In this document: piece by piece, positions 36,435-39,075 of the stretch
Position numbering within the stretch: the first letter of the stretch is position 1
Layout: every line of letters begins with the position of its first letter
Origin: Methyloversatilis universalis EHg5
Lineage (GTDB): Bacteria > Pseudomonadota > Gammaproteobacteria > Burkholderiales > Rhodocyclaceae
Direction of reading: 5' to 3'
Length of the DNA stretch: 64,000 nucleotides
Assembly (NCBI RefSeq): GCF_000378945.1
Contig: NZ_KB900539.1
Span: 3,788,588 to 3,852,587, forward strand
The notes under the pieces: model-generated
The model's database searches: none
What the model was told of the DNA's origin: nothing
Seen by the model: the letters and a program-made list of their open reading frames with translations, nothing else
Position numbers and translations under genes: made by a program

Positions 36435-36868
36435 TCGGTCACCATCGTGCTGTAGTCGCGCCACACGCAGCGGTCCATCACCACGGTCAGGCCGGCCGCC
36501 TGCGCGCGCAGCGCAGCCGCTTCGTCGATCACGCCGTCCTGCAGCCACACGGCCGGCAGGCCCAGCGCGATCGCCTGGTCGACGAACTCGCCGACGCGGT
36601 CGGCGGCGATGAACAGATCGACCAGATCGATCTGGCTGCGCAGGTCGTCCGGAATGTCGGCCAGCGAGGCATAGGCCTTTTCGCCCAGCACCTGATCGAC
36701 TGCCGGCCGCACCGGCACGATGCGCCAGCCGAAGCGCTGCATGCCGCGCGCGACGCGATGACTGGGACGGGATTCGATCGGGGACAGGCCGACCACGGCT
36801 GCCGTGCGCACGCCACGCAACAGGTCAGCGATGGCCTGCGGCGCAGGATTCGTGAACATGGCCGTCAT
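36431..36868 (-). CDS. CoA-binding domain protein (YccU-like)
   Basis: 145-residue cytoplasmic protein with a Rossmann CoA-binding fold: [16 protein letters not shown] near the N-terminus, [36 protein letters not shown] and [16 protein letters not shown], then the MDRCVWRDY motif. Function in this family is unsettled. It overlaps the acyltransferase gene upstream (ATGA) and dapF downstream (ATGA), giving strict translational coupling across all three. Confidence 0.9.
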
Positions 36869-37740
36869 TCTACCGCCGCCGGCCGCTCGACACCGGGCGG
36901 CCGCTTGTAGCGCTTGTAGCCCCAGATGTACTGCGCCGGGTACCGCCGCACCAGCGCCTCGACATTGCGGTTGATCGCATCGACCCGCTGCACCGTATCG
37001 CCCTCGACCGGCAGTCCGGGTTCGATGAAATGGACGTGATAGCCCCGGCCGTGCGGCAGCCGCTCGGCGAACACCATGACAGTGCCGGCGGCGATCGAGG
37101 TCAGCCGGGCAGCCAGGGTCATGGTGTAGGCCGGACGGCCGAAGAAATCCGCCCACAGGCCTTCGCCGTTGGCCGGCACCTGATCCGGCAGGATGCCCAC
37201 CAGTCCGCCGTCCTTCAGCGTGCGCAGCAGGCGCCGTACGCCGCTGCCGTCGGCCGCCGCCAGCGATACGCCGTCGCCCTCGCGCCCGCGCGCCATCACC
37301 GGCGCAAGCCAGGCCTGGCGCGGCGCGCGATACAGCACGGTAATCGGGATGCGCGAACCGATCAGCCGGGCGGCGATCTCAAACGCCCCCATGTGCGGCG
37401 TCAGCAGCACCACGCCTCGGCCGCTGGCGTGCAGACGCTCGACCGTTTCCCAGCCGCTCACCTGTACCACCGCGCGCAGCACCTCGGCGCGCGGCCGCAG
37501 CCACAGCCAGGGCAGCTCCAGCATGGTGCGGCCGGAATGGGCCGCCGCATCGCGGATCAGCGCGGCATCGGCCTGCGGCACGGCGCCGGCGAGGTTGCGG
37601 TCGAATTCCCGGCGGAACTTGGCCGAGCGTGCGTGCATCAGACGGCCGGCCGCCGCCCCGACGGCCTGCAGCGTGCGCAGCGGAAGGAGTGACAGCAGCC
37701 GGAAGGCACCCGTGGCCAGACGGCTCGCGAGGTCGGACAT
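36865..37740 (-). CDS. Lipid A biosynthesis lauroyl/myristoyl acyltransferase family (LpxL/LpxM)
   Basis: Inner-membrane acyltransferase of 291 residues that adds secondary acyl chains to lipid A. The N-terminus is hydrophobic (FRLLSLLPLRTLQAVGAAAG); the catalytic HxxxxE motif is TPHMGAFE (about residue 115), followed by PITVLYRAP, GILPDQVPANGEG with the second conserved block, and QYIWGYKRYKRPP at the end. Which acyl position or chain it uses cannot be told. First gene of its operon and divergent from metK. Confidence 0.9.
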   Translation of the reverse strand: MSDLASRLATGAFRLLSLLPLRTLQAVGAAAGRLMHARSAKFRREFDRNLAGAVPQADAALIRDAAAHSGRTMLELPWLWLRPRAEVLRAVVQVSGWETVERLHASGRGVVLLTPHMGAFEIAARLIGSRIPITVLYRAPRQAWLAPVMARGREGDGVSLAAADGSGVRRLLRTLKDGGLVGILPDQVPANGEGLWADFFGRPAYTMTLAARLTSIAAGTVMVFAERLPHGRGYHVHFIEPGLPVEGDTVQRVDAINRNVEALVRRYPAQYIWGYKRYKRPPGVERPAAVE

Positions 37741-37790
37741 GGACAGGAAGCTGGGTACGCGAATATTGCAGAACGCGGTAGACTACTGTT

Positions 37791-37850
37791 TCCGCCGAGT
37801 TAAACGAGACAACTTGCAGGGCGGCCTACAAATACTGCTAAAGCGTCGCC
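37791..37850 (+). promoter_or_regulatory. SAM-II type riboswitch aptamer upstream of metK
   Basis: The metK leader aligns with the SAM-II (metA motif) class: P1 stem CCGCC (37792-37796) with GGCGG (37820-37824); inside the P1 loop the conserved A-rich segment GAGTTAAACG and TTGCA; then the 3' joining segment TACAAATACTGCTAAAG with the invariant GCTAAA (37837-37842), and a tail GCGTCGCC able to pair as a pseudoknot with ACG of the loop. SAM-II aptamers bind S-adenosylmethionine and repress translation of methionine/SAM genes. This fits exactly with metK, whose product makes SAM. By-eye comparison with remembered SAM-II sequences, not a covariance search. Confidence 0.78.
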
Positions 37851-37908
37851 TGCTCGCTTCCCGGAGCCGGTTCGACGAACCGCAACAGGGAAGTTTGATA
37901 GGAGCAGG
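37849..37908 (+). promoter_or_regulatory. Expression platform masking the metK ribosome binding site
   Basis: Directly after the aptamer, CCTGCTC (37849-37855) pairs perfectly with GAGCAGG (37902-37908), which overlaps the AGGAG ribosome binding site of metK (37900-37904). Nested inside are a 6-bp stem CTTCCC / GGGAAG and a hairpin CGGTTC-GAC-GAACCG (37868-37882). The aptamer tail and the first strand abut at 37849, so ligand binding could switch exposure of the site. Confidence 0.65.
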
Positions 37909-37911
37909 TGC

Positions 37912-39075
37912 ATGTCAGAGTATTTCTTCACTTCGGAATCGGTGTCCGAAGGCCATCCGGACAAGGTGTCCGACCAGATTTCCGACGCCATTCTCGACGC
38001 CATCCTGGCGCAGGACCCGACCGCCCGCGTCGCCGCCGAAACGCTGTGCAATACCGGTCTCGTCGTGCTGGCCGGTGAAATCACCACCACCGCCAACGTC
38101 GATTACATCCACGTCGCACGCGACACGATCAAGCGTATCGGCTACGACAACACCGAATACGGCATCGACTACAAGGGCTGCGCGGTGCTGGTGGCCTACG
38201 ACAAGCAGAGCCCGGACATCGCACAGGGCGTAGACCGCGCCAGCGACGACTACCTGAACCAGGGTGCCGGCGACCAGGGCCTGATGTTCGGCTACGCCTG
38301 CGACGAAACGCCGGTGCTGATGCCGCTGGCGCTGCACCTGTCGCACCGTCTGGTCGAACGCCAGGCTCACCTGCGCAAGGACGGCCGCCTGCCCTGGCTG
38401 CGCCCGGACGCCAAGAGCCAGGTCACCATCCGCTACGTCGACGGCAAGCCGGAGCGCATCGACACCGTGGTGCTGTCCACCCAGCATGCCCCGGACATGT
38501 CGCTGGAAGCGATCCGCGAAGCGGTGATCGAAGACATCATCAAGCCGGTGCTGCCGCCGGAACTGGTGAAGGGCGAAATCAAGTATCTGGTGAACCCGAC
38601 CGGCCGCTTCGTCATCGGCGGCCCGCAGGGCGACTGCGGCCTGACCGGCCGCAAGATCATCGTCGACACCTACGGCGGTGCCGCACCGCACGGCGGCGGC
38701 GCCTTTTCCGGCAAGGATCCGTCCAAGGTCGACCGCTCGGCCGCCTACGCCGGCCGCTACGTGGCGAAAAACATCGTCGCCGCCGGCCTCGCGTCGAAGT
38801 GCCAGGTGCAGGTGAGCTACGCCATTGGCGTCGCCCAGCCGACCTCGGTCATGGTCGAAACCTTCGGCACCGGCAAGATTTCGAACGAAAAGCTGACCGA
38901 ACTGGTGAAGCGCCACTTCGACCTGCGTCCGAAGGGCATCGTGCAGATGCTGGACCTGCTTCGCCCGATCTACCAGAAGACCGCCGCCTACGGCCACTTC
39001 GGCCGCGACGAGCCGGAATTCACCTGGGAAGCGACCGACAAGGCCGCCGCGCTGCGGGCCGACGCCGGGCTCTGA
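37912..39075 (+). CDS. metK: S-adenosylmethionine synthetase
   Basis: Makes SAM from methionine and ATP. The 387-residue product has [17 protein letters not shown] at the N-terminus, [12 protein letters not shown], the glycine-rich [19 protein letters not shown] and [15 protein letters not shown]. The ATG at 37912 follows AGGAG. Expression is probably set by the SAM-II riboswitch in its leader, giving direct product feedback. Followed by a strong hairpin and then a compositionally different gene. Confidence 0.98.

Follow-up and report, generated by a model that had tools for sequence, protein, structure and literature searches.

The riboswitches nearest to the leader described here are those of the SAM-II family, a name that covers SAM-II and SAM-V, grouped as in PMC6914780. 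SAM-II (RF00521, SAM_alpha) is an H-type pseudoknot with the order P1/L1/P2/L3, which carries C18 and the segments UUGC and GCUAAA and precedes genes of the methionine cycle; 44 tandem examples have been described, some with a terminator in the first and a ribosome binding site in the second position (PMC9481103). SAM-V (RF01826), known from other lineages, has the same fold, a short P2a and translational control, and was made a class of its own because sequence searches distinguish it from SAM-II (PMC2704228). In the SAM-V structure, the U20:A48.U9 triple faces the sulfonium, U47 pairs with the adenine and is touched by position 8, and A50 holds the amino acid; SAM-II is said to bind SAM virtually identically (PMC6061858). 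The original prediction for this locus described SAM-II as best known from alphaproteobacteria, and one survey reports SAM_alpha solely from Rhizobiales and Rhodobacterales (PMC4239095), but SAM-II has already been published from beta- and gammaproteobacteria as well (PMC2258182, PMC2704228).

Another pseudoknot, the SAM/SAH riboswitch (RF01727), stands directly before metK in proteobacteria but is, in the available text of two papers, reported solely from Rhodobacterales (PMC2864571, PMC4239095). The metXZ element is a pseudoknot leader of methionine genes in betaproteobacteria, in which, by its text description, regions 1-4 and 2-6 pair like P1 and P2 of the leader considered here; it differs in that it precedes metX/metZ and includes a terminator (PMC4239095). 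For metK itself, a 2014 survey mentions attempts to find a regulation in betaproteobacteria that had no success (PMC4239095), and in the open PMC literature, as far as its text was available, we found no description of a conserved RNA before betaproteobacterial metK. The leader described below would fill this gap: it is most likely a riboswitch of this family that responds to SAM, in a variant (metK type) absent from Rfam 15, and would act as a translational OFF switch.

Parts and conservation of the metK leader

The window, that is, the whole stretch of 64,000 nucleotides analysed, contains metK, whose product makes SAM, the main methyl donor of the cell. By reading of the sequence and its ORFs, metK is separated by 171 bases from the start of a divergent ORF (36865–37740, minus strand), which, going by its sequence, we take to encode a lipid A acyltransferase. 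The parts of the leader are collected in Table 1.

Table 1. Features of the metK leader and their positions in the window
Feature	Position	Strand	Remark
-10-like box TAGACT	37779–37784	+	sequence; 7 nt 5′ of P1
P1 5′ strand CCGCC	37792–37796	+	partner is GGCGG 37820–37824
L1 strand GAGUUAA	37797–37803	+	position-equivalent to GAUUU(G/A)A of SAM-II
L1 bases G8, U9, U10	37799, 37800, 37801	+	numbering by analogy with SAM-V
P2a 5′ strand GAC	37808–37810	+	partner is GUC 37845–37847
P2 5′ strand UUGCAG (pseudoknot)	37814–37819	+	last two bases exchange with 37835–37836
P1 3′ strand GGCGG	37820–37824	+	two-sided changes in relatives
L3, A-rich linker	37825–37834	+	varies among relatives
P2 3′ strand and predicted SAM pocket, CU GC UAAA	37835–37842	+	pocket roles from PMC6061858
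Predicted pocket bases U47; A48–A50	37839; 37840–37842	+	numbering by analogy with SAM-V
P2a 3′ strand GUC	37845–37847	+	pairing counts in metK-type elements
Anti-SD CCUGCUC	37849–37855	+	leader-matched duplex with SD
Nested hairpin of expression platform, CUUCCC...GGGAAG	37857–37893	+	MFE fold
SD with flank, GAGCAGG	37902–37908	+	sequence, duplex statistics, MFE fold
metK, S-adenosylmethionine synthetase, 387 aa	37912–39075	+	ORF

Both strands of P1, the loop segments (TTGC at 37814–37817 and the A-rich AAATA at 37830–37834) and GCTAAA at 37837–37842 are read where the original prediction had placed them, and CCTGCTC pairs over seven bases with GAGCAGG, which overlaps the SD sequence AGGAG, as it had also claimed. 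A third helix, P2a, was found in addition. Folding of the leader on the window strand beats 199 of 200 dinucleotide shuffles (z = −2.78). The MFE structure contains P1 and a long hairpin that closes the SD through its pairing with the anti-SD; ensemble probabilities are 0.96–0.98 for the five P1 pairs and 0.99–1.0 for the seven anti-SD:SD pairs.

At gathering thresholds, a scan of the window with Rfam 15 gave no match on the metK leader; the sole over-threshold match in the window is an anti-hemB sRNA (RF02837) at 2736–2823. A permissive scan of 37700–38000 (301 bases) with 4227 families at E ≤ 10 returned a hairpin ribozyme at E = 10 as the sole match, and the covariance search for SAM-II and SAM-V that had been proposed as a check was thus negative at E ≤ 10 in this region. 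SAM/SAH (RF01727), SAH (RF01057) and SAM-II with long loops (RF01726) did not match the leader at E ≤ 10 either, and a genome-wide search with SAM-V (threshold 41 bits) was negative at E ≤ 10. With RF00521 (gathering threshold 36 bits), four places in the genome were obtained at E ≤ 10, none of them at the metK leader; one, before a metH-like ORF, lies above the cut-off with 43.3 bits. Since RF00521 misses the metK leader yet finds the metH SAM-II, the leader appears to be a divergent variant of the family: the SAM-II fold proposed for it stands, and its identification as plain SAM-II is not borne out by this search. None of 20 metK leaders of relatives matched any Rfam family at E ≤ 10; eight of these 20 loci have SAH riboswitches at other places.

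Using metK as a query, we obtained at least 581 related stretches and took the best 80, with 83–91% identity in the best segment. The motif was scored as present when the pattern nCAA(C/A)TTGC...GCTAAA occurred within 340 bases, P1 not being required, and two of the 80 loci were left unjudged. Among these best 80 of at least 581 relatives, the motif is present upstream of metK in 45 of 78 judged loci, including Rhodocyclaceae, Azonexaceae, Polynucleobacter, Cupriavidus, Pandoraea, Burkholderia and Lautropia, and absent in 33, mainly Gallionella and its kin, Nitrotoga and Methylophilaceae. Conservation before orthologous metK genes agrees with the choice of metK as the target gene. A DNA search with 37780–37990 as query, which matched 55 of 61 genomes, was set aside as a measure of leader conservation: many of its matches fall in the metK coding part, and the count is not leader evidence in itself because the query included 79 metK bases. 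Nine of these genomes have a separate match to essentially 37790–37824 or a part of it.

The aligned metK leaders read CGCC-GAGUUAA-var-GACAACUUGC-nn-GGCG-var-AAAU-nn-GCUAAAGCGUC, and the primary sequence of the metK-type leader is very conserved. P1 and GCTAAA, whose loss from orthologous leaders had been named as grounds for rejecting the original prediction, are both retained in them. We extracted 59 distinct copies of the motif from the loci, 35 of which entered the pairing test. In these 35 leaders, 98.8% of cells are paired over the 14 pairs of P1, P2 and P2a, and two-sided changes occur at four pairs, 31 cells in all (0/500 shuffles). Four of five measures (pairing, two-sided pairs, two-sided cells and covariation score) exceed every one of the 500 shuffles; for the remaining measure, the count of pair types, 500/500 shuffles reached the observed value. 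When the 3′ strands were slid out of register, pairing fell from 98.8% to 32–52%. The outer P1 pair is UA in 21 and CG in 14 of the 35 leaders, and P2a is without any variation in this set. Among relatives, the outer bases of P2 exchange between AG/CU, GG/CC, GA/UC and GU/AC.

For a larger set, we used a covariance model built solely from metK leaders (R1). Its 240 aligned matches, less nine duplicates, gave 231 sequences; 16 were not parsed and five were of neither type, leaving 167 metK-type and 43 classic (SAM-II-like) elements. The parse required at least four of five P1 pairs and picked the best register; therefore the P1 counts in this set of 210, in which the outer P1 pair also occurs as GC, lean towards pairing, and the 35-leader test is free of this bias. 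Loci L105–L114 were outside the R1 search, hence the metK-type leaders L106–L108 and L110–L113 are outside the set. Gene labels rest on short protein motifs, which miss some metK genes (L022, L070, L071, L116), so that the rows labelled as non-metK include some metK.

Among the 167 metK-type elements, P2a pair 13 is GC in 141, AU in 11, GU in five, CG in two and unpaired in eight, and pair 14 is AU in 149, GU in 11, UA in two, GC in one and unpaired in four; pairs 13, 14 and 15 are formed in 159, 163 and 167 elements, respectively. The first outer pair of P2 is AU in 68, GC in 62, GU in 13 and CG in two (145 formed, 22 unpaired), and the second is formed in 163. Each of the P2 outer and P2a pairs, the near-invariant pair 15 excepted, is reached by 0/1000 shuffles, a statistic that, like the other shuffle tests here, takes no account of relatedness among the sequences. 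Within the 126 rows labelled as metK, P2a pair 13 exceeds all shuffles and pair 14 (123/126) is no better than shuffles. The two-sided changes in P1, P2 and P2a across relatives bear out the SAM-II architecture that had been proposed. L3 ranges from 5 to 61 nt in the metK-type elements, with inserted hairpins recognized by eye. At E ≤ 0.01 and with stricter filters, R1 has matches in 302 of the 399 genomes searched in the order and, in a class sample, in 161 of 369, both element types taken together.

Relationship to SAM-II and SAM-V

P1 and P2 of the metK leader form an H-type pseudoknot in which L1 carries the P2 5′ strand, the arrangement of the SAM-II family. A relation by sequence is also observed: in the genome of the window, R1 scores 79 bits on the metK leader, 32.4 bits on the metH SAM-II (E = 4.6e-5) and 24 bits on a leader before a gene with a metZ motif (E = 0.007). 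As the classic elements in the set of 210 were found with R1 and are hence R1-like, we avoided this circularity with 30 loci picked by RF00521 alone from other classes of the phylum (probably Alphaproteobacteria). R1 weakly matches 10 of them at E ≤ 10 (seven at E < 1, the best at 0.01), in all 10 cases at the place of SAM-II and nowhere else; the other 20 were unmatched at this threshold.

In 21 aligned rows comprising metK-type elements, betaproteobacterial SAM-II and other SAM-II, the UU of L1, UUGC and GCUAAA are invariant. By our own mapping onto SAM-V, the equivalents of U9, U10, U19, U20, G21, C22, U47 and A48–A50 are kept, also in the window. The U8 that contacts U47 in the SAM-II family is absent from the window, which has G8, as do 119 of 126 metK elements, the remaining seven having U. 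Position 8 is the one ground for considering a ligand other than SAM, such as SAH or another adenosyl compound, given that this position touches the adenine-pairing U47 in SAM-V (PMC6061858) and that G8 is nearly fixed before metK. Such a ligand is nonetheless very unlikely: the equivalents of U9, U20, U47 and A50, which read SAM, are kept, the gene encodes SAM synthetase and known SAM aptamers precede metK, and no SAH family matches the metK leader of the window or of the 20 scanned relatives at E ≤ 10, although SAH riboswitches were detected elsewhere in these loci.

The metK-type and classic elements differ jointly at L1 nt 6, nt 17 and P2a. Classic elements have GAUUUGA in 38/43 and AGC before UUGC in 43/43 cases; metK-type elements have GAGUUAA in 119/167 or GAUUUAA in 23/167, and AAC before UUGC in 158/167. 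Nucleotides 6 and 17 are G-G in all 43 classic and A-A in 159 of 167 metK-type elements; one or the other combination is present in 202/210 elements (shuffle maximum 153), which nearly coincides with the split into two types. A G-G/A-A pair in L1 of SAM-II is predicted in PMC2258182, where the positions given here are our own reading of its text. The register of P2 and P2a, with C18, two spacer bases and then P2a, is that of the Rfam SAM-II consensus by eye. For P2a this likeness rests on the consensus, because the 43 classic elements give no support: in them, P2a pairs 13 and 14 at the metK-type register are formed in 20 and 21 elements, the same as in shuffles, and the first outer P2 pair in 19, likewise unsupported.

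Relative to SAM-II, the metK type thus has G8 for U8, A6/A17 for G6/G17, a P2a near GAC:GUC, an L1 that may hold an inserted hairpin and a widely variable L3, and it is tied to an anti-SD and to metK. With SAM-V it shares the fold, the pocket bases, a short P2a and, probably, translational control, and it too can stand second in a tandem behind SAM-II; it differs in that about 50 nt separate P2a from the SD further downstream, and in that a separate anti-SD, rather than P2a, sequesters the SD. One competing reading is that the leader is ordinary SAM-II, for which the Rfam model is merely too narrow. This is a real possibility, though we do not favour it. The topology is identical, and intermediates exist: the metK elements with U8, the metK-type elements with GAUUUAA and three of 43 classic elements reading GAGUUGA. 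Against it stand the joint differences listed above and the behaviour of RF00521, which, in one scan of five tandems (L148, L149, L159, L160, L167), finds the classic member (three above and two below the cut-off) and never the adjoining metK-type member. This separation resembles the ground on which SAM-V was named a class (PMC2704228). Our preferred reading therefore remains that of a distinct variant within the SAM-II family, which would represent a third natural solution on the SAM-II/SAM-V fold, with G8 in place of U8 and a short P2a combined with a separate anti-SD. More tentatively, the metK type may deserve the rank of a separate class beside SAM-II and SAM-V, one that also forms the second, translational half of tandems before genes that have no known tie to methionine. 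If so, a fall in SAM would turn on the genes behind these tandems, among them those for small MYDC/MFDC proteins with a MATE transporter gene next in line, and those for a MoxR-like AAA ATPase, an HD hydrolase and several Pfam-less proteins. The tandem layout itself is not new, as tandem SAM-II pairs have already been described (PMC9481103).

The elements before genes with a metZ motif (L146, L152, L155, L163) are of the classic, SAM-II-like type. RF00521 scores them below its cut-off (29.7–32.8 bits for L152, L155 and L163, and 18.6 bits for a fragment of L146). As these elements are SAM-II-like, the metXZ element, compared here by its text description, is probably SAM-II itself.

Expression platform and predicted switching

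In 123 distinct metK leaders, we compared the 14 nt that follow P2a with the 24 nt that precede the start codon, the start codon being the nearest upstream ATG, GTG or TTG (at least one, in L065, is misplaced). The anti-SD:SD duplex has −12.14 kcal/mol when both segments come from the same leader vs. −8.79 kcal/mol when leaders are mixed (0/2000 permutations), and neighbouring control segments show no leader-matching effect (465/1000 and 911/1000). The two strands thus match leader by leader, as the original prediction, which proposed comparing them among related genomes, had expected. A helix with at least four expected pairs is present in the ensembles of 93/123 leaders. In 94 of 122 leaders, the 33 nt before P1 contain a -10-type TANNWT box (against a mean of 31.6 and a maximum of 47 in base shuffles); it sits 7–8 nt 5′ of P1 in 61 of the 94, so the aptamer probably starts at the RNA 5′ end. 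The box of the window, TAGACT, does not fit TANNWT and is a weaker match than the boxes of relatives.

In the proposed mechanism, transcription would begin at or just 5′ of P1, and the RNA would fold as an H-type pseudoknot of P1, P2 (UUGCnn with nnGCUAA) and the 3-bp P2a (GAC:GUC), the groove of P2 being occupied by a third strand, L1 (GAGUUAA). SAM would be seated as in SAM-II and SAM-V, with its adenine on U47, the sulfonium by the U20:A48.U9 triple and the amino acid on A50. Bound SAM would lock P1, P2 and P2a; the anti-SD, which follows P2a directly, would then be available for pairing with the SD, and translation of metK would be turned off as product feedback. When SAM is absent, the P2-5′/P1-3′ strand GCAGGGCG would pair with CGCCUGC and capture the anti-SD, and the SD would be open.

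The SD hairpin has a probability near 1 in the full leader of the window; therefore the ON state needs such a competitor. The duplex of the GCAGGGCG strand with the anti-SD has −11.5 kcal/mol in the window. Across leaders, the putative anti-sequestor duplex is weakly leader-matched (−10.48 vs. −10.23 kcal/mol, 18/2000 permutations) and its best duplex beats shuffled tails in 73/123; P1 is above a probability of 0.5 in the full leader in 53/123. In truncated transcripts of the window, the MFE structure has the alternative pairing at ends 37854–37872 and 37896 and P1 at the other ends tried, which is suggestive only. Co-transcriptional loss of P1 was rejected as proof of an anti-sequestor, being seen in 116/123 real and 114/123 shuffled platforms. 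Because the anti-sequestor signal is weak and this control negative, the proposed direction, SAM as the OFF signal, follows homology and product-feedback logic.

The nested hairpin, which the original prediction regarded as an added element, has similar counterparts in relatives by eye, and a U-run occurs in the platforms of 29/123 leaders, so that in some of them it may double as a terminator. Control by transcription termination at this hairpin in place of translation would also suit the observation that alpha- and betaproteobacterial SAM-II is most often terminator-linked (PMC2258182). It is unlikely, since the same test finds no such U-run in 94/123 leaders, the hairpin of the window is followed by UUUGAU, and the anti-SD of each leader fits its own SD. 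The least likely reading considered is that the leader is a binding site for protein (MetK or another that binds RNA), or that a methionine regulator uses it as a DNA operator. Protein binding, too, can yield strong primary-sequence conservation such as that seen here. Against this reading stand the two-sided RNA pair changes in three helices of the pseudoknot; the element also lies downstream of the -10-type box, and betaproteobacterial metK is, in the available text of the survey, under no known methionine regulator (PMC4239095). Translational control by a SAM-II-family riboswitch accounts best for these observations.

Other elements found in the searches

The genome of the window also has the classic SAM-II before metH, above the Rfam cut-off (G000:C1:334655–334733; L001/L145), and, before the gene with a metZ motif, a SAM-II-like element with a long L3 followed by a terminator-like hairpin, of which Rfam matches a fragment only (G000:C1:2941772–2941855; L146). 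R1 has 10 matches in genome G677 and six in G789, whose contig also encodes an OLD-type ATPase, a UvrD helicase and a PD-(D/E)XK nuclease.

Tandem leaders with a classic SAM-II followed, after a gap of about 33–114 nt, by a metK-like element were identified before a small MYDC/MFDC protein (L135, L139, L148, L149, L159, L160, L167, L178, L179, L187, L201, L208, L211, L215, L226), and a single element before such a protein in L196 and L198. The one MYDC/MFDC protein tested has no Pfam match. Several of these loci have an apparent transporter start about 380–420 nt downstream, confirmed as MatE in L215. Other SAM-II-family elements, several of them before Pfam-less proteins, were found in L228–L232, L234, L240, L241, L248, L134, L203, L218, L225 and L238; among them are those before a MoxR-like AAA ATPase (L232), an HD_4 protein (L203) and, by eye, metF-like genes (L240, L248). 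In L150 and L151, from the family of the window, and L157, from its order, a single SAM-II-like element precedes a protein of 60–65 aa containing QALRRGAPL (read in L150 and L157), without a Pfam match in the one tested. In L153, a SAM-I/IV riboswitch (616–719, 66 bits) precedes a metK-like SAM-II-family element by about 470 nt; RF00521 matches weakly between the two (20 bits, 866–947).

Finally, twelve riboswitch-free metK leaders, many of them from Methylophilaceae, have in common a hairpin in which the stem varies and the loop reads TT(C/T)AGCCTTTAGT (L066, L067, L074, L079, L083, L090, L092, L093, L104, L105, L109, L114). In the 11 of these 12 loci that were scanned, it matches no Rfam family; it lies about 22–58 nt before metK and is often followed by a T-rich stretch.
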